Origin: Nereocystis luetkeana
Lineage: Eukaryota; Sar; Phaeophyceae; Laminariales; Laminariaceae
Length of the DNA: 64,000 nt
Direction: 5' to 3'
Assembly: GCA_031213475.1 (NCBI GenBank)
Contig: JARUPZ010000030.1
Span: 5,077,661-5,141,660, forward strand
Shown here: in pieces, positions 675 to 56,497 of the stretch
Layout of the letters: every line of letters starts with the position of its first letter
Numbering within the stretch: position 1 is the first letter of the stretch
Notes under the pieces: generated by a model
Databases searched by the model: none
The model's input: the letters and a program-made list of their open reading frames with translations, nothing else
Told to the model about the DNA's origin: nothing
Position numbers and translations under genes: made by a program

Positions 675-3600
675 CTGATTGTAGTTAACTCTGTTGGCGG
701 CGTGCGCGAGCTCGCTCTCCACCAGCGACCCTCTCCGGCCGACTCGGTCCTCAAAGTGGTCCGCGATCGTCATACGAGAGAGATCGAGAAGGCCGACCTC
801 GCCTGAAAACGCGCCGGCGTCCAAGTTAGCGGTCTGTTTTGCACAGGTGGCCAGGGGCAATGAGGCAGGAATAACCAAAGGCTGACCGTTGAATGTCGCC
901 GTCATCAGCAACGGCGGCGTTTAGTTTTTTGAGAGTTTCGACGGCGTTCTCAATATACTCGTGTGTCCACCCGCTCTAAGCGAGCAACCGGCTTTGCTCG
1001 TTGCAGGTGGTATAGTCTGTAAGCCAATCCAAAGACATGCGATGTATCTCTTCACTCGGACTCTCTGCGCACACCACCTGCCGCCCGCCCACCCCCCGCT
1101 TTGCGACGCAGACAGACAGACAGACCGTGAAATTCACGTCATGCGTCGCATCAGCGTTAGGGACCACAGTGTTTACAGAAGCGGCAAACTATTCTATCAG
1201 TGCGTCAAATTCTCGAGTGCGCTCGGCCTATACCGCCGTTGCTCCTGGACGTTACCGCCGTCCACGGTGCAGTAACGCCTGCCCCGACTCACTCCACAAA
1301 TCTTCTGGCGTGTCGAACACCCTCCCGTCAGCCTGAAGGTCGTATATCCGGTCGAACTTCGCCAGCGCGTCATAAACCATGGATCTCAGCGTCAGCAGTG
1401 ACCTGAACAAGGAACGAAAACGGACCGCACACGTTGTGTTAGACGTCAAATCCGCCGCCGCCAGCGAAGGCCATGAAGGTCGATCAAAAAGCCGAAAAAT
1501 CATTCCCGTGACCTATGCTGTGCCACTCATTCGGTCAACGATCGCTGCTGCATCGCTCAACGTACTGCTTTTTTTAAACGCAGCTACGCGGGGGGTGAAA
1601 ACCGGGCGCAGGCTGCCATGCCAAATGCGGGCGAAAAATACGCCCCAAAGCTACTGTATCACATAATCTCATATGCGCTTACATTCCGTATCGCCACGCC
1701 ATCCGCATCAGGTTGGCGACACCCCTCTCCGTCGTCGTGAGCACGAACCGCTCGCCGTCCCATAGCCCCGTTTGGGGTCCCTCCTGCTTTGCGGCGTCGA
1801 CCCGTTTGAGGCCGACGCGCTCGGTCAAGTTGAAGAGATGGGCGTTGCCGGTGTAGATCACGGATGCGCCTGTCTCTAAAATCCGCCCGTCGTACACGAA
1901 GTGCTATTTCACACATAGCGGCACCGAGGGAGGGGGGGGGGGGGGGGGGTTCTCGATATCATGCATGGCCGTAGTCGTATGGCCATAGACCCTAGCATCC
2001 CTACCATGCCGGAAAGGAGCCCGTCGGGTTTTCACCGACCGGGAAGACACTGCGTGCACCAAGCGCGAAGCGCTGTGAGGTGTTCGGCGAGTCGCATGAA
2101 GGGTGGGCTGCATCTTACTGGAAACGCCTGTGAGGCGGACTTGCACATGTACGACAGCTTCCATGAGTTAAACTATTTTTCCGGTGTCAGGGGGTGGGGA
2201 ATCACCGACACTGAGTTGAAGAACAACGTTTCGACTTTGTGATAATTGCTTCGTTCTATTAATAGGATGTTATTCTGTGACACCTGGTACCTTTTGGTGG
2301 TTCAGTCGCCGTTGTTTTGCAGATTTACATGCCTTGTCAAGGACACGACCCACTTTTCGGTGCAGTGTGAACTCGCAGCCATCACCGTGCAACAGCGGCC
2401 ATGTCGGCGGCGCTGAGGGGCATCCAGCACGCGTGACTCAACCGACAGCCTCTCGTAGGAAACTGGGAATGATCGACCACAATATTTTCACGACTATGCA
2501 TACTTCTTTTTCCCCAAGTTTGCCTTCGCTTGCCCTAGAAGAGGGGTAGAAAAACGGGGGAAATAATTATTTTCTGAATTCGGGGCACAGCGCCTATACC
2601 TGAGGCAGTTTTTGGTGGGATTTATCTTGAAAATTCGGGAAAATTCTGTCAAGGAGCACCAATCACAGACGAGTTTTTAGTAAGGATTTTTTAAGGACAA
2701 ACGTAGGTGATTGGCACCACGATCGCGCCGCCTTTGTCAGACGAGACGAGGGGTGGCGCGCGCGAGGAATAGAGAGACCTCTGTTGCAGCTCGCAAGCCC
2801 AGACAATCGACGCAGCATAGGGCGCCCCCGACATCATGCTGGTGTGGCGATGTATGTGCTTTGAAGTGTGTTTCGTAGTCTACGCTCTGTCTCTGCAAGA
2901 GGGTAGAAAGTCGGGGCCTGCGCAGACTGCTGTCCCTTTACGTATTCTCATCCGCCCAGAGGTCACATGATAAAGTTTTGAGTGCGTGCGCGTAGCCAGA
3001 CCACAACGACACCTGCACCAGACATACCAGCAGCATTAGCTTCGTCTTCGTCAATCCGAGCCCTGGCCCTTGCCTGCAGCAGCGGATACACCCCGTGCTT
3101 GCAGTGGCTAGGACGCGTTTCCCGTCGAATTTCAAACAGCAGCAGTACAGCAGAAATATTACAACTCTGTCCGTAAATGTAAGAGAGTGTTGATTCTCGT
3201 ATTAATACCCGAACAATCTTTATATTTCCGGACATAATGGTAGTACCAGCACCACTCTGTCCGGGTATGTAAGAAATTGTCGGTGTTGATTTTAATATCC
3301 AAAGAGCCCTTAAATTATCGGACATGGTGGTATTGTTCCTGCGAAAAACTCAAAACCAATTCTAAAACCAAGTTAAACGCACTTTCCCCGAGGAAAACAT
3401 CCCAATGCCCCAACGGGTGGGTAGGGTGGACCGAAACTGGACCAAGTCCGGCGGGAAGGCCTCATAGCCTCGGTTATTGTTAGTGGGTGAGCTCGCGCAA
3501 GTCCCACACTACCCGGGAGAGATAACTCTCCCCCCGGGTGGCTATCTCCACTGCACCTGCCCCTCTCGGGGGTCAGGTCGGGTCAACGTACCTAAGGGCC

Positions 3601-6600
3601 AGTAGTAACAGCAGGCTGTGCTGATGTTGCAACGGGAGCTATAGGTTAAATTGACACACGACACGGGAACGTGGAAGTGTGGTGAGCTTAAGCTATATTT
3701 TTATCAATCCGCCGGAGGAAAAAAAAAAGAAAAAAAGAAGATAATTTAATGTCTTAAAAAATGTTCCTCAGGTTTAGGATCGGAGCCGAATTCGGGGAGA
3801 CGAAATGGGCTGGTGAACTCCCTCGTGTTATAGAACTGCTGTATGAGATTGAAAGCCCGGTAATTACCTGGGTTCTGGCACTGGGATCGTATTGGTAGTA
3901 CTTGGAAGGCGTATCTTAGGTGGAAAACCAGGGGTTTTCCAGAGAGGCACTAGCGTGGTCTCAGTCTCCGTCGTGCACGAAAGGAATAAAGTGGCTCTTC
4001 TATCTCTAAGCGAACATCAACGTGAGTACCAACGAGTGCCGGCTTAATAAGCAGGCCTGTCCAGGGATACAAAGTGTCACGCTCTCCGTGATCTTAACAA
4101 GTGGCGTCGTCGGCAGGACATAATACGCGGCAGACGGTCCGGTGGCCCGTCATCACATTGCCCTTGCCAGAAGTGCCCGGCATCGCCGTCAGCATCGACT
4201 ATTTCGGCCCCCTCCAGGTGACGCCTCGAGGAAATACCTACATCTTGCTTTTCACTGATCGTTTCAGCCGCCGAGCCGACATGTACGCCGTCACTGCGGC
4301 AGAGTTCACCGCTGAGGGCACGGCTAACATTCTCATCAACCGGTATATTCCTCTCTCTGGGGGTGCCCGCGCAGCATTCTCTCGGACAACGGCCTCCAGT
4401 TCTGCTCCAACATTTCGCACGCCGTATATCAGCTTCTCGGGATTCGAAAAGTTGCCACCAGCTCCTACCACCCACACGGCAACGGTGGGGTGGAATGTGT
4501 AAACCACACGATGGGCCAAATGCTGGCAATGGTCGTCAACGGGCTCCAGAACAAATGGGATGAACAGCTCCCTCATGTTAACTTTGCGTACAACAATTCG
4601 GTCAGTGCCGCCACGGGTTTGGCTCCCAACGAGGTCCATATGGGTCGGCTGCCACGCCTCCCCCTCACGATTTTCGAGCGTGCTGAAGTCGCCGGCCACC
4701 AAAGCTTGGCCCGCGACCACCTCGCCTATTGCGACTTGGCGACGGACTGCCAGCAGCGCGCGTACGAAATCGTTCGCGAACACCACGCCCTCACTGTTGC
4801 CCGCGTGAACCGCCGCAACTCCGCCCTCGCCGACGCTCTGCGTCCGGTCCCCAGATTTGACGTTGGCGGCTGGGCGTGGGTGTACAATACGGCGGCCACC
4901 ATCCGCCAGGGGGCAAAACCCGACACCGACACCAAGGTCCTCAAGGCCAAACTCCCACTCAACTGGACAGGCCCCTACAATTTTCTCGCAGTTGGCCCCT
5001 GCTCAAAAAGCGGGCACCCCGGACGGATCTCCTCTTGGGGCAAAGCTCCTGTATTTGGATCTTCCCTCCGATATACCCGGCGCGGATGCTCGTCGGCGCG
5101 TTTCAGTTCAACACTGCAAGCCCTGTGCCAACCCCCACGACCGTGGCGACATGCCGGAGTATTTTCCAGCGGGGTTGACGCCGTACGTGCTCAACAACTT
5201 CTCCAAGAAATCTCCCCCGTACCACGTCACTCAGGACGACGTCTCGACACCTCTTCACAGACTCGAAGTGGAAAAAATTACCGGACACCAATCAGTTCGA
5301 GGTCGAGGTGGCGTCATCGCCGTGACGTACGAGACGCACTGGACAGGACTATCCCGTCCGTCCTGGGAACGGGAAATTGACCTTCAGCTTTCTCGCCACG
5401 CAATTTTGCGCTACTGGGCCGGCATTCCGAACCAGCACCGCCAAACCAACCGCCTGTACCGCCGAATGAGAATCGGCGCGGCGCAACGGGAGCTCTCTCG
5501 GAGTAACGGCGGGCGGTTTCTGGCACCCGGCTATGGCTGCGTCTCGCACGCTGACTGGCTCCGCCGATACTGCAACACCGTGCTTCCCAACGGGGCCCAT
5601 TTTTGGTACATGGGCGACGACGGGCTGTGGTGGCTCGGGAAAATCAGCGCGACTACGCCCACGGATGGAGTATATTTAGTTCGATTTTTGGACGACCCGG
5701 GACCGATCAAGCTTCCTCTTTCTCCGGCGCGCTATACGACTTCGACGAGAGCTGTACGAGGCTCTTGGTGTCTGCAAAATCACTTGGCTAGCGCGTTTGC
5801 ACGGGGGGTCCAGCGTAACGTAGACGAATCTCAAGGTGCCGCCGTGGATAGCTGATTTTCGCTTCTCGGCTGCGCTCGATTTTTTTTTCTTGACGTTTTC
5901 CTGGATTTTGGGCGGTGGTCTTTCTAGTTGTTGACGTTTTCCGAGTTTTCGGGTCGAGGTTTTTCTGGCAGGTGTGTTCCTGTGTTGCTTGTTATATTGT
6001 TTTTCTTGGGCTTGGTTGGGGATGTTTTCGCGTATTCTGTCCTGCCTACTCCCCCGCTCAGTGTCGGGGCTGGTCTGGGTAATCGGGCCACCCATTTGTG
6101 GCTCAGGACACGTTTCCCGAGTAGTAGGCTGGGTTTTCGGTGTTTCTTGACATCTTCCGTGATACCTGGTATTTTTCTTCTCGTCTTTTTTATATTCACT
6201 TTTCACTTCCCTGCATCTTCCTCGCCCCCCCCCCGTCGCGGGTGACATGGCGATGGTTTTTCGTCGTCGATTTCTTCCTGCCCCTTAAGGCTACGCCTTC
6301 TTTTCATTCTTTCTTACCTGGTACGTACTTTGCCGGCTTCGTTGCCTTGCCGTTCAGAGGTGTGGGAGTGGGTTTTGAGGAGCCGCATCTTCGACTCATG
6401 TTCTAGTTTGTGGAATCGGGGCTTCCATGAATTTCCCATAACTCTGCATATATATATATATATTTTTTTTTTCTCATCACATTCATTATCTTCGCACATC
6501 TTCTTCTCTCTCTCCTTCCAACTCGTAACTCAGATCCGGGGTCACATAGCAGGCTCTTCTCCCCCCTTCCCGCTACGGTACGTGCCTTCATTTTTATCGC

Positions 6601-8147
6601 GAGAAGATTTCAGCCTTTTCTTCCCTCGTCGACTCGCATCGAATTGTGCCTACCCACGCTGCAAGGCGCTCTCAACAATTAAATCCTCTTTTATTTTTGC
6701 AAATAAAGTCAAAGTCCGACCCACCTGGGGCTCGAACCCAGGACTCAAACAAGTAGAATTCGAGGCATATACGGCTCATCAGAGTGGGCTATAGTGTTAT
6801 GATACTGCTTTGTATGAGGTTGAAAACCCGGTAATTACCTGGGTTCCGGCACTGGGATCGTATTTGTAGTACGTGGAAGGCGTATCTTAGCGTAATTCTT
6901 ATCGGAGAGCTTTTTTCCCAATTTTTCGACATTTTTTTCGCGCAATTTTTCAATCTTCCATATTTTCCTGATTTTTTTTTCCATATATTGGAATTTTAAC
7001 GAACTTGATATTTTTGGTTCTGGAGAATTTCACGAATAGTGACAGAGCGCCTCCGTATATTGATACATATCTCCAATTATTTCCAAACTTTGGAAATTAT
7101 GGAAAAAACGCTCTCCGATAAGAAGGAATCTTACCAGGTAGGTGGAAAACCAGAGGTTTTCCAGAGAGGCACTATTAATAGCGTGGTCTCAGTCTCCGTC
7201 GTGCACGAAAGGAATAAAGTGGCTCTTTTATCTCTAAGCGAACATCAACGTGAGTACCAACGAGTGCAGGCTTAAGAAGCAGACCTGTACAGGGATACAA
7301 AGTGTCCCGCTCTCCGTGATCTTGACCCCTTTAGAACCGCAGTCCCGTTTTGGGGACAAACCAGGCAAATTTCAAGTAGTTTGTCCCCAAAACGGGACTG
7401 CGGTGCTAAAGCTGCGAACACACAAACGCTATCGCAGGGTACTTGCTGCTGTCGCATCTCAGGAGCGCGATCCCTGCACAACAGAGAGCTACAGCCAGCT
7501 TTGCTGCAGCTGCTGTACTCGTACGTAGCCTCGAGTCTTCGCATGCGATCCTGGTTTCCGTACACGAGTTCTATAGTACGAGTATACTTGGCATGTTGGG
7601 AATACTTGAACATTCGCGCAGGCACCCGGAGATCGAAGGTATCTTATCGTCAGATGCGATGGTTGATGATTACTTGTACCGACCAGCTTTGTCTACAATC
7701 AATGGCGAGGCAAGAAAGCGGGTACAGATAGCAGAGAAAGACGCTCCAAGCGCACGTGCAGCGGCGAGAAAACTGCGCAACAAATCACTGCGTGCGCAGG
7801 AGTACTCAAAGCCAAATACAGCCCCTCTCCACAGCACACAGCACAACAACAGCAGAAACAATAGCAGTGTGCATTTGGTATAGCATAGCTGATTCGTAGC
7901 TGCTCACATCCGTCCTGCCTCCAGCCTTGCTGGCGCTGTCGAAGACGGCAATCTCCACTTCGTCTCCTAGAGCTTCTCGTAGGAAGTAAGAAGCGGTGGC
8001 GCCCCCAATCCCGGCCCCAATAACAGCCACAGAGAGTTTATCGGGGCTATCAGCTCGCAGGAGGTGGCATCGGCACAGGAGACACAGAAGGAAAAATACC
8101 AGCGAACTTCTGGGACGGCTGCTGCTACTCCTCGACGACAACATCAT
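1..8147 (-). CDS. PCYOX: Prenylcysteine oxidase-like FAD protein (5' part; gene runs off left edge)
   Basis: Four exons read on the minus strand: 8147-7908, 1903-1683, 1402-1293 and 802-675 (233 codons, phases 0, 2, 1, 0, all GT-AG). Residues 1-32 form a signal peptide with a Leu-rich core. Residues 39-60 are a Rossmann FAD-binding segment with GAGIGG and ATASYFLRE, followed by GGRT near residue 79. Exon 2 carries the ETGASVIY segment, the counterpart of the family's E-x-GGS-I-I stretch. Exon 4 ends in ANRVNYNQ, matching the R-V-N-Y-G-Q block of prenylcysteine oxidases. The known enzyme cleaves the thioether of prenylcysteine in the lysosome or secretory pathway, giving a prenyl aldehyde, cysteine and H2O2. 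The remaining C-terminal exons lie left of base 1. Start: first Met before the signal peptide. Intron 1 (1904-7907) holds a Ty3 fossil. Another FAD amine-oxidase-like enzyme is a less likely alternative. Confidence 0.8.
3163..3331. mobile_element. Two adjacent copies of MITE family C
   Basis: Copies at 3163-3241 and 3251-3331, each about 80 bp, start CTCTGTCCG and end CGGACAT-type, with an AT-rich centre (ATTAATA, TTTAATA). Related copies lie at 10921-11010, 22128-22210 and 42264-42343. They lie in intron 1 of the flavoprotein gene. Confidence 0.6.
3650..3760. repeat. Dispersed repeat family I, copy 1
   Basis: Shares TTGACACACGACAC, GTGTGGT and ATCCGCCGGAGGA in the same order, then ATAATTTAA, with 38680-38785. 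Unclassified. Confidence 0.5.
3826..4099 (+). repeat. Left LTR of the Ty3 fossil
   Basis: Begins TGTTA and ends TTAACA. It contains an AATAAAG polyadenylation-like signal near 3985 and aligns over its full length with 6795-7325 once the nested insertion there is removed. Confidence 0.75.
6715..6795 (-). repeat. tRNA-like sequence (degenerate tRNA or SINE head)
   Basis: On the minus strand there is a perfect B-box (GGTTCGAGCCC) in a good T-arm (CTGGG/CCCAG), and about 45 bases upstream an A-box-like TAGCCCACTCTG. The 3' acceptor strand (GTGGGTC) has no matching 5' strand and the anticodon stem pairs poorly, so this is not an intact tRNA. It ends exactly where the right LTR begins. A tRNA-derived SINE remnant or a captured tRNA fragment would both fit. 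Confidence 0.5.
6795..7325 (+). repeat. Right LTR of the Ty3 fossil, carrying a nested MITE
   Basis: Begins TGTTAT and matches the left LTR up to its terminal TTGA, where a copy of MITE family A starts. It is longer than the left LTR because of the MITE at 6890-7129 and two TA-flanked micro-insertions (7132-7140 and 7172-7181). Confidence 0.75.
6890..7129. mobile_element. MITE nested in the right LTR
   Basis: A 240 bp AT-rich block absent from the left LTR. Its ends are inverted repeats sharing TTCTTATCGGAGAGC. It is flanked by CTTA at 6886-6889 and 7130-7133, consistent with a short target duplication. It has no coding capacity. It inserted after the LTR retrotransposon. Confidence 0.75.
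7326..7411. mobile_element. MITE family A, copy 1
   Basis: An 86 bp near-perfect hairpin. The arms contain CCGCAGTCCCGTTTTGGGGA and its complement, with outer ends CCTTTTAG/CTAAAAGG in better copies. Other copies: 32879-32970, 54498-54588 and 63515-63619. It abuts the right LTR. Confidence 0.75.
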
Positions 8148-8678: not shown

Positions 8679-11600
8679 ATGGCAGCAGCAGCCACTCGGG
8701 CTTGCGCGGCTCTCCTGGGCCTCTCCCTGGCATGCCACCACTCGTCGGCCTTCACTGGCGGCGTGGTGCGTCCTCGTGCGGCCACCTCCTCTCCCACCGC
8801 GAGCCTCTCGCGAACGGTAGTATCGCGAGGGAGCACTAGCGCGGTGCCCAGCTTGCAGCAGCGAAAGGAGCATACCAGTGCGTGGTTGACCGGTCGAAGG
8901 GATGGCGGAGCGAGGCGGTCGAGCAACGTGGCGACCCTGAGGATGTCGGAGACCGCGGAAGTGGCCGACGCTGTCGTCGACGAGGGGGAGGAGCGGTACG
9001 AGTTCCAGGCGGAGGTCGGGCGAGTGATGGACATCATCATCAACTCACTGTACTCGAACAGGGACGTCTTCCTGCGGGAGCTGATATCCAACTCGGCGGA
9101 CGCTTGCGACAAGAAGCGGTTCCTCGCTGTGACCGAGCAGGATGGAGAGGGGGCGGACGAGGACACAGAGTACCGCATCCGTGTCAGGGCAGACAAGGTC
9201 GGTTTCTTGTTCTACTCCTGTAGAACGCGCTAGCCTCGCGCTAGCCTCGCGCTAGCCTAGCGCTTTTACCTCTTTGCCTCGTCTTTGCTTCACTTTGACT
9301 CGTCTTGCTTCGCCTAGCCTCGCCTTGCTTGGGCTGGTTGCCCGTGGCTGAGTTCAATGTCAGATTTTGGAGACCCTGCACCCGACGAGCTGTGAAAATG
9401 GCTCCGCCTTGTTTAGCAGCATCGTGTTGTAATGGTATACCATACTGTTGATGGTTGAACTTTCAAGTTGATGCTACGTGGCAGTTCGTGGTAGACAGCA
9501 GCCGTAGACGAGCAGGCAGTGGGCGGAGACAGAGTACGGGTTGCAGCGACTGCGTCGTACAAAGCTCATTATCCCTCTCGTCAAGGCCTGCACCTCGTTT
9601 TTCTATACCGAGGAGACTCTCTTGATCTCGCGGAAGTCCTCGTGTGGGAGGCATTCTGTGTAATATTTGGCTGCTGTCGCGTGCTCTGTTCTGGGTTCTG
9701 GAACATGATATGGACGGTTGGGAGGGCGTCAGGGCTTGGTGCTTTCGTGACATGATGTTTTGATTCAGAAGGCGCACGATGACTGGTGGTAGGTCTATTT
9801 ATTACGATCGATGTTGGGTCTGGTTGGAGGCAGTGCTGCTGCGTTTGTAGTGCGGTGTAGAGGGTAGAGGGGAAGACCGGCTCGCCTAGACAGATGCAAC
9901 CTACTGTACGTCGGCCGGTTGTTGCCCTCGTCGAGAGACGAACCACCTTCTCTCGCTACGAGTATTTGTTTACATACCTGGTACTCGTACTGCATAGGAG
10001 AACATGACACACTCGAGTCAGAAAACCTGACCGATGTGATGATGTGATGATATCATACCAAGCAGGGAGTAAAACGTACCTGGTACCTGGTACCTGGTAG
10101 GTATTAATAATGTGTCGTTGGTCGTGTACCGTGCTGTGCAGAGAGGGGTATACACAGCAATAGATACAGACAGGCATGTTATTCACACCTACATGACGAC
10201 GCCTTTTGTGCAGGCCGTGCGTGCAGGCAAGAGTAGATCAAGTTGATGGCAAGTGTGATCCGATGATGCTTGTTGCGCACCTGGTACATGCTTCGTACAG
10301 CAGTCTATTCCAGGTATGCTTGTTCGTACAGGTACACAGATAACAAGTCAACACAACCTGCCATGTACAGCAAAATGTTACCAGGACAGCACAGCGGTCG
10401 ACTACGTACAAAACAGCAGTAGTGCTTTAGCATGAGTATCATATTAATAGTTGTAAACGGCATCAATCGTGAGGCACATGTATCATTTACGACTGCAAAA
10501 GTTGAAGTTCGAAGGAGAATCGACTCGCATGTCGCTGGAACCAGCTCCTATAGGTATGATATCCTACCTCACCGAGACTCTGCTGCTGCTCCAGCGAATT
10601 GTCGTGTTCCTACTGTTAAGTTTACTGCTGCTGTTGTGTTGTCCTCGCTACTCGTGTATGATGTGCACTCATGCGCTCTGCATTTACGCTCGATATACTT
10701 TGTGTTTATCATACCAACACTCCGTCTCACAGGACGCCAAGACCCTCATCATCGAGGACTCGGGTGTTGGCATGACCAAGGAAGAGCTCAAGAACAACCT
10801 GGGAAAGATTGCCGAGTCTGGAACGGCCAAGTTCATGGATGCCATCAAGCAGGCAAGATGGATGTGATGCGAGCTCCCTCTTAACGTTCATTGGCGATAT
10901 ACCACACCTCCCCGAACTGTGACCACCGTTTGGATTTACTGTACTATATACTGCTGTAGTATTAATATCCAAACGGTCCTTGTACTGTGTAGTATGGACA
11001 GAGTGGTATCGAGGATGCAATCGATGCTGATTCAGTATGTACCTCCGGTGTTGCCCACAGGAAGGAGAACTACTGTAGGGACTACCTGGTATCATAGTCG
11101 TTGCTTGCAAGGTCAAGGTTGACGTGTTTGTACGTTCACTTGACATGCTCAGCACGCAACAGGGAAAACTTTGGGCCAGTGTATCCTGGTACTGGTATAG
11201 TAGAGTCATACGTAGTCAATACCTGGTATGCGTTAGTAACAGCTCTGTCATCGAAACCTCAAGCTCGATGGACGTGCAGGCAGCATCGTAAGCTGTCTCG
11301 GGTAAAGGTAGCGTCGCCCACTTCCAGTACTTGACACATCGGACACACGATATATTCTCTACATGATGATCTAGATCTTTCAGGGCAGATCTATTAGATC
11401 TTGTATGATCTGTATGATCTAGCCCATGTTGCCGGGTCGGAGCCTCATCACCCGCTTTTGATCTACTGCAGGACATGTTTCTTGGGTTGGATCTGTACGA
11501 TACAGATCCTGCACATATCATAACTGCAGATTATGCCTCAGAAAACCTACAGCAGATACTTGAGTAGATACATCGTTATCTGCCCGATGTGTGCAAGCGA

Positions 11601-17150: not shown

Positions 17151-20100
17151 GTAGATTGCCCCGACAACAATATTGGAGCAGTTGGTGTTTCCCTTCCGGT
17201 ATTACAGTAATAAAATAACAATCTACGCCGCATCCGCTCCTCGCGTTTCTGTCGTTGTCATTGGCCAGGGCGAGTCTGACGTGTCGCTGATTGGCCAGTT
17301 CGGGGTGGGTTTCTACTCCGGCTTCCTGGTGGCGGACAAGATCACGGTGTACACCAAGAGCTGCCAGTCCGCTGACGCACCGCAGGTCAGATAATACACT
17401 GATTGCAGTGTTTTGCGGAGGGACGCGGCCAGCGCAAAGCCCATGGACCTCTTCGGGTTCCATGCTCGTATCATACGGAACGGGCCGGCATGTAGGGGTA
17501 AAATGATGACTTGCAACTCGCAATGGGGTACATGGCCAAACGTGGGCGTCGTCTAAGAAACATTTCGTACACAACACGGAAACTAGAACATAATCCTCGT
17601 ACTGTGTTGTGACTGTTGGTCTGGGAAACGTCCGGTCGTGCCCGTTTTCGATGCTGAACCTGGTTCCCGTATGTTCGATATGGTGGTATGTCGGCGCCGC
17701 GCGTCGATGGCGGTACGTAGCGTTGGATCCTCTTCCCCTGATGGGTGAGCGATAATGAGCCTATTAATAGTGCTAGTATTATTACGGGGGACTATAGTTA
17801 ACAGGACCTATGGCATACATAAAAACCTATATGTTTAACCATTTTTACTAACAATATTTGGTCCTGTTAACTATGGCCCCCCGTAATAGTAACCGGTAAG
17901 GTTGGACACTCTTTAGCTCCGTCTGCGCCTGATGAGTGATGATAACCGGTGTACGCACATAAACAAACTCTAGTCGGATACTGGTGTTTTGGTACCGGGT
18001 ATTTTACAAGCAGCTGGACCCGTCAACCACACTACCGGTACGTAGTGGTCAACGCGGAATAAAGATGACACCTAAAACATCTCTTTCTCTTGCTTGGGCA
18101 GGGCTTGCGTGGTAGCTCGCGTCCAGTCGGCTGCAGTACAATCACACGGTCGGCTTGAGGATTTTTGGAGTTCGTCGCAGTCTGCGCATGCCCCAACCGG
18201 GGATTTTTTTATGCGGCAGCGATCAGACCATATTGTACGCCGGGCTTTCCTCGTTCTTGGTTAATCCGCTTGGGCATTTTTTTCCAGGCAAGCGTCAGCT
18301 TTGACAGTGTACGGCAAAACGGCACTCGCTCTTGTGCAGCTATAAAACTACAGTACTTTTTACGCCGATGCTGTCTTGAGTAGCCTATCACCGCCTCTGC
18401 TAACCTGGATGGCGTGTTTTATCGTCCTGTACGCCCTATGAATATCTCCGCTCGTGCAGTACAAGTGGGAGTCGCAGCAGAGCAGCGCTTACACGATCAA
18501 GGAGGACAACACCGAGCCGCTCGAGAGCAGCGGCACCCGCATCGTGCTGCACCTCAAAGGGGACAGCGAGGAGTACCTCGACGACTTCAAGGTGCGTCCA
18601 CACTGTCGTGTGTCCCTTTCCGTGTGCTTGCTGCTGCTGTGTCTGCTGTTGATGCTGATGCTGCTGTTTGCTGCACTGGTGGGGGGTACTCGTAGCATGT
18701 ATTTAATAAGCGGCTACGTACGTATCAGTAGCAAAATTGTAGGCGTGTTTTTTTCAGTACCAGGTAGTATATGCGGGGGCCGTAAATATGTATATATATA
18801 TGGTATTTAGTATAGAAATGGCCAAAATAGCACGTGAATTATACTACGGTCGGCATTTTTCGTACGTGTCTTACATATATGTACCAGGTATTAATAGTGG
18901 TTTTGATCTTTGTGTTGTTTTGTACTTTTTTTGTCTCACCTGTTTCGTTTTTGTGTTCTGCCCTTTACTAGTGCTTTTCTAATTTTTGGCTTATTTTGGG
19001 GTCTGTTCTGTTGTTTCTTGTTTGTGTGGTGTTTTGTTTCGTTTCGATTCGATGAAACCGCACCTCCTCCCGTATGTCCGTCCTCAGATCAAGGAGCTGA
19101 GCACTCGCTACTCGGAGTTCATCTCCTTCCCCATCGAGGTTTGGGCCGAGAAGACCTCGTATGACCAGGTGCCGGACACCACCGCAGAGGTGGCCGAGGG
19201 CGAAGAGCCGAAGATGAAGACCGTCACCCGCACCGCCATGGAGTGGGAGGTGTGTATTTTGCAAGGCAGGGGGGGAGATGGGCTATGAGGGTGCGCGGGG
19301 GGGGTACTCTTGCCATGCATGGAGGGAGGGGAGGGGGGGGGGGCGGGGGCTCGTTTTGCTGGGATATGTTTTGCCGGAGCTGTGGGAATAGGGTGTTGCA
19401 GTAGCTTATTGGTTGTATCGCCGTCTGATTTTTATCGTGGTGGGCTTGAGTCGTGATGTGCTTGCCATGGAATGGAGTATGGTTGTATCACAGCAGTGTG
19501 CTTGCAAGAGACGGGATTTGTAATTTGTACTGTTCATACTGTTGATAGTGCGGGTCGCAGTGATCCTTTTTCCTACTGGACAACGAACCAAGATGCAGCT
19601 TCGGTGTTGACAAGATACGAAACGGAGAAAAACAAGTCGAGCATCGCAAGTATTCTGGAGGGTACCGAGTGAGATGCCAAGCGTACTGTTAATATTGATA
19701 TACGCCCTTGTTTTTCCTCTTCCTCCTTTCGGCCCTGTAGCGCATGAACAAGATGAAGCCCATCTGGATGCGAAGCCCTCGCGAGGTTAAGGATGAAGAG
19801 TACGCAGAGTTCTACAAGTCGACGTTCAAGGCGTGGGACGAGGTGGCCGCGCACTCTCACTTCTCGCTTGAAGGCCAGGTCGAGTTCCGCGCGCTCCTGT
19901 TCGTGCCCAGTGTCCTGCCGTACGAGCTGAGCCGCAACATGTTCGACGAGACCAGCCGCAACATGCGCCTGTACGTGAAGCGCGTATTCATCAACGACAA
20001 ATTCGAGGAGCTGCTCCCCCGGTGGCTCATGTTCCTGCGCGGCGTGGTGAGTCTGTCTTTCTCTTCTCCTGTGAGGTGCTGTTGTGTCGAACGGACGCGT

Positions 20101-39640: not shown

Positions 39641-42600
39641 GTAACCGTGAACATCGAGCGCACCAGCATGAACTCCCGTCGAATCTCTGGAAGCATTGTG
39701 GTCAACCGCCCGATTGAGGTTCGTGTAGTATCGACATACGGTGTGGTATTAGGTTGACTGTAGTGCAGCGCCAATGAAGTGTATTGAAGTTCTGTTCCCC
39801 AGTGTACATGCAATCGGTGTATCACACCTTTGGCAGCAGCAGCCGCAGCAGCAGAAATTTAGTTTGGGCGGCGATATGAGCATGTGATATTTCTGCCACT
39901 TCTGTCTGTTGTCTTATTTTGGAGGCGTCGCCCACGTTGGAAACGCCTGCAGTCGTGGTGAGGCGTGACATTGTGGAGCGGTGCTACCCCGACCCGCCGT
40001 GCGGCTGGCACGGGCCAAGACTAGCGTGTGGCCCGTCAGTGCTTTATCGTAGCCAACGACTTGCGGCCTTTTGTGTTTGCACATGGCAAGCAGATAGTTG
40101 CTTCCCTATGGCATGCCGCAGTCGACGGTCTCCTCGTGCTCTCAGCTGCTGCCATCCCGTGCAAAAATAATGTATTCGTCGCGCCGCCTTCCGCCCACGA
40201 GTCGCCCGCGCAGCCCAGTATGTCACTACAGAATGTTGAGTACATGCATTTACTTTGTTTTTGTAACGAGCGGCGGAACGTTGTCTGCTCAGCCGCACTC
40301 GTTTTTTGTGAACTCCTGTTGTAGAACCTCCCCCATCCACGGTTGAGTGGCCTGAGCTATCTTGATCGTATGCTAAGTCGGTGTCACTCCTCCCTCCCAC
40401 CCACCACTGCCACTCCCAACCCCACCCCATCCCCCCCGCCATTCTCTTCCGCGGATTTTTTCTCCTTTCAGGATGTTTGGCTTACCCTTACGGATTACGA
40501 CCGGTTGGCCGAGTACGTTCCGAACTTGACCCAGAGCAAAGTCAGGCCGAGCAACGACGGGCAGATAAAACTCTGGCAGGAGGGGGCGCAAAAAATCGTC
40601 GGCTTCGACTTCCGGGCGTCGGTGGAGATGTTCATGGACGAGCACTTCGGTACGTCGCTGCCGATGTCCCCCGACTTGTGTGTTTTTGTACTATTTGTTT
40701 TCTGTTTTTTCATGGCGACCGCTGGCCTCGTGCTCCGGAATGCCGTGATTTTTCTCGTTTGGGTTGTTGCAGCAGCAGTAGTATCCCGCGTATACCGTTT
40801 GCGTACCAGGTAGATTGCGTGATTTAGCTTGGCGGTTTTGGTGATTGTCGGCTGCCGATCGACCCTGTTGTATTCCTGTCCCCCTAGAGGTGTATGGCTT
40901 ACCTTACCTTAACCGACGTTCACCGCCCCGCCTACGTCCTGCTCGATCCCCATCTTGAATTGAACATCAGGCGACCCGGAGAACAGGATGGCGCAGCGGA
41001 AGCTTACGTTCGGGCTGCTCGACTCCCGGATGTTCACAGAATTCGACGGAGAGTGGAGGATGCAATTCAACAGCCGCAAGGTGTGTTGTGTGGCACTCGA
41101 CATGTTCTAGTATTCACACCACGGCGCAGACGAGATCAACCGTCTCTTAGAGACAGCGAGAACTCAAAAAAGGCTCGAGAAGATGATCGCAGAACGGCTT
41201 CTTGGGTCTGCACGCTTTGATGGCGAATTTGTTGGGGGAGGGTTCTGTCTAAACGGTCTAACCTTGGGATCGATGCGTTGGTGGGCATGGCCGTGTTGGT
41301 GGGAGATGCGAGAGGGGTTATGTTGATTGGCGAGTCGGCCCATGGGATCAGTCTGTTCGCTGCGTTTTGAAATATGTCTGTCGTAGATCGCTGCTACGGC
41401 AGTGCCCCCTGTCGATGTAGTATGTGTGCACTCTGCTACAGCAGCGTTTGTCTACCGAGTCGCTCACCGATAACAAAGGATGCCCTGTCACATAAGGACG
41501 GCCCGATAACCCCCACCCCCTTCCACCCCACCCAACCCGCTTATCCTTGCTTTCTAACGTGTTCGGCCTTATCGAAACACACGTGCAGAGTCGCTTTTTA
41601 TTTCTTTCATGGTGTCACGAGCGATAAACCCCTCCGCTTTTTTTTTCTAGAAACCCAAGGTAACAGAACGGTTCACGTGGGTACCGAAACATCGAGTTGC
41701 GGTTTCACTACAGTACACATTACCCGCTCTGCTGTATCTCTCGCTCACCGCCACACCGCGCCACGCCCCCCTCCTCCCTGCCTGTGCTCGTGGAAACCCC
41801 AGCAAGTGGCTGGCCCTAACGGACTGGAGTTCCAGTACACGACGAAGCTTTTCTACATGGTGCACATCAGGCCCAAGGGTCCCGTGCCGGTGCTTGCGCT
41901 AGAGTGGCAGATTTCTAACGAGGTTCCCAACAATCTTGCCGCTCTTAAAAAGGCCGCGGAGCTGGTCACGCCGGAGTACATGCAGGTGGGCGGGGGCGGT
42001 GCATGCATCGGGTATGCCGGGGATATGACCGACCCGAGTTTGTGTCTGTGTCTGTGTGTGTTTCTTTTGTTCTTGTTTTTCGCGTGCTGGTTTTTGTTTT
42101 CGTTTTTCGTTTTTGAGGTATTAAGTCTACACCGCGTGGGTTTTGCCGGTATAGACTATGAATAGTAGGCGGGAGGTTGAGAAAGCTACTAACACGGCTT
42201 GCCTAAGTCAAAGAGCCCCCGGGGTTTGCAACCTTTCCACGGTGGGTATCACTCACCGTACATACTCTTGTCCGTAGGCGTAAGGAACAGTTGGTCATTG
42301 ACTTTATATTCAAAAGGTCCTTACATTTTCGGACAGAGTGGTACGAGTTAGCGCGTTACCGTTGACGCCCTTGGTACGCCCCATGGCAAACCGGGGGCTG
42401 CAAGAAATTCAGAGTGTATCAGGGCAACTGTTCTATGCTGTTGGTTGTGATGGGCGACCGGTCCTTTTGGGCGCGTCGAGGCCTCCTTCGGCCTATTAAA
42501 CTGTTTTTTGTGTTGGGAGTGGTCAGACAAGGGGGTCAAACCGTGGCGGTCTCCTATTGGTAGCATGTACACTAATGCTGAGTAGGGGCAAAGGTCGGCC

Positions 42601-54878: not shown

Positions 54879-54906
54879 CCAGGTACCAGGTACCAGGTAC
54901 CAGGTA
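54879..54906 (+). repeat. Tandem CCAGG array flanked by TA, four units
   Basis: CCAGGTA repeated four times without a mismatch. Confidence 0.9.
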
Positions 54907-56387: not shown

Positions 56388-56497
56388 GTATTACGGGGGT
56401 CCATAGTTAATAGGACCAAATATTGTTAGTAAAAATGGTTAAATATATAGGTTTTGATGTATAGCATAGGTCCCATTAACTATGGTCCCCCGTAATA
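56388..56497. mobile_element. MITE family B, copy 3 (inverted relative to copies 1 and 2)
   Basis: TATTACGGGGGTCCATAGTT and AACTATGGTCCCCCGTAATA ends are almost perfect inverted repeats, with the AAATATTGTTAGTAAAAATGG interior in reverse. Confidence 0.85.

Follow-up and report, generated by a model that had tools for sequence, protein, structure and literature searches.

Insertions at TA in the Nereocystis luetkeana genome as probable excision footprints of two transposon families

Results

Two TA-based insertions in the right LTR of a retrotransposon fossil

The window, the 64,000-nucleotide stretch of Nereocystis luetkeana DNA that was analysed (G000:C30:5077661-5141660), contains a retrotransposon fossil. 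Its left and right LTRs differ, without counting indels, at 13 of the 259 positions compared, and by two short insertions in the right LTR (Table 1). A plastid-leader-like frame points to a stramenopile, probably a brown alga. At the first site, the left LTR holds a single TA within CTTAGGTGG and the right LTR reads CTTA-CCAGGTA-GGTGG, with CCAGGTA at 7134-7140 as part of TACCAGGTA. At the second site, the left LTR holds a plain TA within CACTAGCG, where the right LTR reads CACTATTAATAGCG and carries an extra TTAATA that makes TATTAATA. Direct reading thus bore out an earlier sequence-only reading, in which the right LTR had been said to carry the two insertions TA-CCAGG-TA and TA-TTAA-TA. That reading had also placed CCAGG at the junction of a MITE that interrupts the right LTR; the insertion itself stood, and its tie to the MITE did not, since CCAGGTA lies outside the MITE. 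The MITE is putatively PIF/Harbinger-like because it is bordered by a 3-bp TTA duplication and its family members have TTA or TAA flanks, and it was ruled out as the origin of CCAGG by this duplication and by its end, which comes before CCAGG. A separate hairpin MITE with ends like CCCTTTTAG lies immediately 3′ of the right LTR (7327-7412); several of its relatives have TTAA at both ends, a piggyBac-like feature. Below, an inserted motif together with its two TAs is called a scar.

Table 1 Features of the window (LTR, long terminal repeat; scar, inserted motif with its two TAs)
Feature	Position	Strand	Basis
Left LTR, both sites empty (TA 3917-3918 and TA 3951-3952)	3826..4098	+	direct reading, LTR copies
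CCWGG scar in retrotransposon	6163..6171	.	absent in one related copy, polarity ambiguous
CCWGG scar in retrotransposon	6315..6323	.	absent in one related copy, polarity ambiguous
Right LTR, MITE-interrupted, bearing both scars	6796..7326	+	direct reading, LTR copies
PIF/Harbinger-like MITE (putative), not the scar source	6890..7130	+	TTA duplication 6887-6889, 7131-7133; 43 matches listed
TA-CCAGG-TA scar, putative element B type, in right LTR	7132..7140	.	other LTR copies
TA-TTAA-TA scar, putative element A type, in right LTR	7173..7180	.	other LTR copies
Three CCWGG scars in chain, TATTAATA next at 10102	10077..10099	.	motif positions
Element B-like end TACCACTCTGTCC, terminus 11008	10996..11008	-	looser-end scan
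Element A-family MITE, TA-TTACGGGGG...CCCCCGTAA-TA	17780..17888	.	repeat comparison
Joined scars TACCAGGTATTAATA	18882..18896	.	motif positions; count of TACCWGGTATTAATA in text
Element B-like end TACCACTCTGTCCG, terminus 42343	42330..42343	-	looser-end scan
TACCAGGTACCTGGTA, two adjoining scars in opposite orientation, not simple slippage	47932..47947	.	motif positions
Three CCAGG scars in chain	54884..54906	.	motif positions
Element A-family MITE	56389..56497	.	repeat comparison

Polarity of the insertions

The LTR family is abundant (2,854 first-look candidates, 40 of them scored), and the fetched loci hold 52 BLAST pieces of the LTR, from which 27 copies in addition to that of the window could be parsed with a pattern that covers both sites. 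The first site lacks the insertion in 25 of these 27 copies, and the remaining two, L035 and L038, which have the same sequence in the part shown, hold a MITE there. At the second site the insertion is absent from all 27; CACGAGC stands there in 22 and CACTAGC in only 2, from which the target TA itself seems to be the product of a G>T change. The near-universal occurrence of the short forms indicates that they are ancestral and that both insertions are derived and centred on TA, as had been claimed.

Small indels between repeat copies have a similar form. The 305 kb that had been fetched yielded 113 distinct indels of 3-16 bp, 21 of them tandem, and among the non-tandem indels with a 2-4 bp duplication TA was the commonest (20), the next dinucleotides reaching 7. 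The inserts at TA were CCWGG (8), TTAA (4), CCAGGG (2) and seven others seen once each, including CTCCGGAG. Polarity is clear where many loci show the short form (27 at the LTR site, 12 at one CCWGG site and 9 at a TTAA site inside a copy of the transposon called element A below) and ambiguous where there are just one or two other copies. This TTAA scar, at about G000:C30:2039212 in copy L102, is indicated to be recent by its position inside the transposase frame and its absence from the nine other loci; the transposase match in L102 (2038853-2040307) is six bases longer than the query's 1,449, and the frame stays open despite the scar. The opposite polarity, with the long forms as the original state and the plain TA as the product of a deletion between the TA copies, could draw on the fact that TA...TA is a direct repeat and deletable by slippage, but it is extremely improbable given the LTR counts, the 25 of 27 copies without even a TA at the second site, and the nine loci that lack the scar of L102. 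In an A-family repeat, several copies (e.g. L027, L029, L023 and L020) have CCWGG scars that share one TA or lie close to it, near CCTA-TATATTT, and this TA is likely a target hotspot.

Abundance and chains of the scar motifs

The excess of both motifs in the window, also part of the earlier reading, was evident against 200 third-order Markov simulations: TACCWGGTA occurs 36 times compared to a simulated mean of 0.65 and a maximum of 3, and TATTAATA 19 times compared to a mean of 1.15 and a maximum of 5. Genome-wide, TACCWGGTA was counted 182,395 times in 465 Mb, or one per 2.5 kb on average, while the reversed word was counted 1,744 times, an approximately 100-fold excess; strand symmetry makes an even split between CCAGG and CCTGG inevitable, and this split was not counted as evidence. 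After removal of the central repeats from the loci, 159 kb remained, in which CCWGG accounts for 100 of 677 TA-N5-TA words, and with AT, CA, GC, TG, AC or GA as the anchor the top 5-mer insert reached at most 24, that 24 being the same motif in another frame. A palindromic word of such frequency could in principle be a selected protein-binding site. TACCWGGTA is, however, present as a TA-duplicating insertion in repeats, LTRs and MITEs among them, and a second motif often adjoins it, which leaves this explanation with almost no probability. Other TA-X-TA words (CAG, TCA and CGAG) are enriched in the window and a 195-kb sample, some with flank preferences of their own, and together with the single CTCCGGAG insertion and the few CCAGGG insertions they suggest further footprint-leaving families.

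Scars are also found joined to one another. Five adjacent pairs occur among the 36 CCWGG scars of the window, four in the same orientation and one in opposite orientation, and eight occur among the first 100 genome places, five and three, respectively; the joined word TACCWGGTATTAATA occurs 1,913 times genome-wide, compared to once for its reversal. If 7-bp units slipped or were duplicated in tandem, TACCWGG chains would grow and the motif would spread like a microsatellite. This agrees with the same-orientation chains at 10077 and 54884 and with the same-orientation majority of the pairs, and slippage may have contributed to such chains. It was excluded as the sole cause by the three opposite-orientation genome pairs and by six opposite-orientation chains in the 195-kb sample, and single insertions at a lone TA also speak against it, so that as the general source of the motif it is very unlikely.

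Element A, a candidate source of the TTAA scar

Element A has TA-TTACGG ends and an IS630/Tc1-type transposase. Its copy in L099 is 4,274 bp long with the TIR TATTACGGAGGCTCATAATTAGTAGG and a transposase of 483 aa, and the copies in L099-L102 are 98.0-99.6% alike over ~4.3 kb, with ends that are TATTACGGAGGCTCATAATTAGTAGG or a close variant. The TIRs of these four copies measure 23-26 bp, and TA stands directly at only 5 of their 8 ends. A genome search with the IS630 model NF033545 gave 24 weak matches, all below threshold, several of which are identical intact frames. The A transposase (L099:2067-3518) matched DDE_3 above the cut-off (E=2.7e-12) and HTH_33 below it (E=0.001); DDE_3 as a genome query gave no matches, though it matched this transposase directly. 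The 123 residues from the second D to the E seem unusually long compared to the usual IS630/Tc1 spacings. With its DDE transposase and TA-flanked TIRs, element A belongs to the Tc1/mariner (IS630) superfamily. Short MITEs of the family TA-TTACGGGGGACCATAG have ends similar to those of element A. The copies in L099 and L100 lie within TAG microsatellites that also hold TATTAATA, and TAG repeats are interrupted by TTAA five times in the sample.

Element B, a candidate source of the CCWGG scar

Element B has TA-CCASTCCGAC ends and a mariner-like D-39-D transposase of 437 aa (L104), which was found as one of the weak matches to the IS630 model. The 39 residues lie between the second and third D, with the residues chosen by eye, and plant mariners share this D-39-D spacing. 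The transposase scored 31.4 bits with HTH_Tnp_Tc3_2 (PF01498), just under the cut-off of 31.5, and matched Mos1 in the PDB with only E=0.033. From the D-39-D transposase and the TA-flanked TIRs, element B is predicted to be mariner-like, of the plant type.

A direct TIR scan of L104 gave none, and the TIR emerged only with homology boundaries, which were located by a DNA search with L104; the protein search with the B transposase had 105 matches listed. TIR homology is present on both sides of C24:8371255-8373249, the own two ends of which are TACTGGT and TACCC. Thirty end pieces, 29 fetched and one from L104, were aligned on the inner TIR. Eleven ends, in 10 of the 30 pieces, read TA-CC-A[GC]TC[CT]G, and four more have one or three extra bases after CC (two TA-CCC-AGTC and two TA-CCWGG-AGTC); the remaining pieces are variants, decayed, truncated or off target, with about half of the 30 falling in the last three classes. 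Element B thus starts with CCA, as the CCWGG scar requires, and this end was found via the transposase, independently of the motif, after several other transposases had been tried. For DDE_1 transposases (28 matches), no TIR was convincing in any of five stretches of 7 kb, and no TIRs were recovered from L094, L097 and L103, other IS630-type matches. Among the unpaired TACCWGG sites there is no common TIR of greater length, which had initially been counted against a CCWGG element. The two TA-CCWGG-AGTC ends (L104:2930-2950 and L118) look as if a scar stood at the end of a still-resident element.

The exact pattern TACCASTCYGACNNNNNATATA occurs at 294 places genome-wide and at none in the control. 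By eye, about 8 of 33 listed candidates were judged to be looser B-like ends in the 305 kb, where 129 scars are found; among them are those at 3242, 3332, 11008 and 42343 of the window. Scars are therefore roughly ten times as numerous as recognisable B elements, or more. Frequent movement of a low-copy element would leave one scar per move, and decayed or unrecognised subfamilies would also depress the element count.

Flank preferences of elements and scars

In the flanks of CCWGG scars the preferred bases are A or T at -7, A at both -6 and -3, and a purine at -1; TTAA scars prefer TAC immediately before the TA; scar-adjacent halves were excluded from the CCWGG matrix. The flanks of 15 B ends scored 1.74 with the CCWGG matrix compared to -1.12 for random flanks (none of 20,000 resamples as high) and -1.61 with the TTAA matrix, and those of 48 A ends scored 0.92 with the TTAA matrix compared to -0.80 (0 of 20,000) and -1.08 with the CCWGG matrix compared to -1.12. 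To limit the dependence among ends of related copies, both sets were reduced to a single end for each element or locus, which left 9 plain B ends and, with A flanks in TAG microsatellites excluded, 19 A ends. The thinned B ends scored 1.05 with the CCWGG matrix compared to -1.10 (9 of 20,000 resamples) and -0.91 with the TTAA matrix compared to -0.80 (11,393 of 20,000). For the thinned A ends the TTAA score was 0.32 compared to -0.80 (23 of 20,000) and the CCWGG score -1.30 compared to -1.10 (13,581 of 20,000). The flanks thus pair element A with TTAA and element B with CCWGG, a pairing that stands after thinning but is weaker, with related ends and flanks still partly dependent. The flanks of the CCAGG scar in the right LTR are a poor fit to the B preference.

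These results bear on a further explanation, the insertion of fixed palindromes at TA by a process that needs no transposase. The great excess of scars over recognisable B elements would be expected from such a process, whereas inserted bases and flanks that fit two real TA-flanked elements, each matching its own scar only, would not, and we give it a slim chance at best.

Discussion

The sequence-only reading had likened the two LTR insertions to the footprints of a Tc1/mariner-like element or to the products of an undescribed micro-insertion process, and the former explanation has gained support from the derived, TA-centred insertions, the lead of TA among the indels and the two fitting elements with matching flanks. 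Empty sites have one TA, and scars have two TAs that enclose bases fitting the termini of an element. We infer that both LTR insertions are very probably excision footprints of the Tc1/mariner superfamily, in which a transposon would have inserted at a TA and later excised. At one repeat site with 32 matched copies, an A-family MITE is present in 3 and none has TATTAATA; in the sequences compared, a pair of occupied and scarred alleles was seen at no site. This counts against the footprint explanation, as do the scarcity of recognisable B ends, the loss of about half of the B end pieces to decay, truncation or off-target matching, the poor flank fit of the CCAGG scar in the LTR and the A ends that lack a directly bordering TA.

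A single overhang rule could yield both scars. If the transposase nicked three nucleotides inside each end, 3-nt 3′ overhangs of the terminal bases of the element would remain. For element A, TTA overhangs would pair via their self-complementary TA, and 3+3-2 nucleotides would give TTAA and hence TA-TTAA-TA. For element B, CCA overhangs would share one base, an A-to-A mismatch that repair would turn into A or T, and 3+3-1 would give CC-W-GG and hence TA-CCWGG-TA. Such a one-base A-opposite-A joint is unusual and counts against the scheme for B. A 4-nt overhang, CCAG, would serve the CCAG ends and fail for the CCAC ends. From other B joints one would expect CCA, seen in 24 of 595 TA-N3-TA words, or CCATGG, which is absent from the 22 commonest TA-N6-TA words in the 159 kb. 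Each scar would keep two TAs and could be targeted again; a TA next to an older scar resembles the B preference for A or T at -7 and A at -6, so that chains would be favoured.

Excision footprints of Tc1/mariner elements are already known (PMC4561436, PMC1925063, PMC4423477). For mariner and Sleeping Beauty, nicks three nucleotides inside the element are described, with 3-nt 3′ overhangs forming the footprint (PMC7827188). The scars are similar in that a short remnant of such overhangs would lie between two TAs, and different in that Sleeping Beauty footprints are described as identical to the overhangs, while here an overlap of 2 nt (A) or 1 nt (B) is proposed (PMC7827188). Footprints of Stowaway and of rice Osmar5 likewise keep the TA duplication with 1-4 bp of the TIR ends between the TAs (PMC1925063), but they are varied, whereas here one 5-bp word recurs ~182,000 times. 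The TIR consensus of grass Mariner elements is CTCCCTC (PMC4423477), in contrast to the CCA start of element B. In Ectocarpus, 17 Mariner-Tc1 families with 11,912 copies, mostly non-autonomous, are described, including a 4.4 kb autonomous element that resembles element A in size, a likeness of size and not of sequence; the words 'footprint' and 'excision' are absent from the main text of this survey (PMC12477816). Searches of the literature on footprints and brown algae listed no genome-wide scar counts of this kind, which does not prove their absence from print. Compared to known footprints, the scars stand out in their number, their uniformity and the occurrence of two types that can be tied to two families in one genome.

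Whether DNA transposition in this lineage is recorded mainly by exit scars and less by resident copies we regard as evenly balanced; in that case, more than 180,000 scars would be the datable excision record of a mariner family with few recognisable copies, which would favour its own old scars as targets so that scars breed chains. Scars tied to elements would make excision rate, repair outcome and target choice measurable over evolutionary time, and those that lie in repeats could be used as presence/absence markers, with caution since some TAs are hit repeatedly. They are also a warning that, in genomes of this kind, small indels and an excess of motifs may be transposon damage and not regulation.

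As a minor observation, two unrelated queries match at steps of ~83 kb (some of 82-104 kb) along G000:C29 from ~3.89 to 5.05 Mb, a periodicity that suggests a large tandem segmental duplication.
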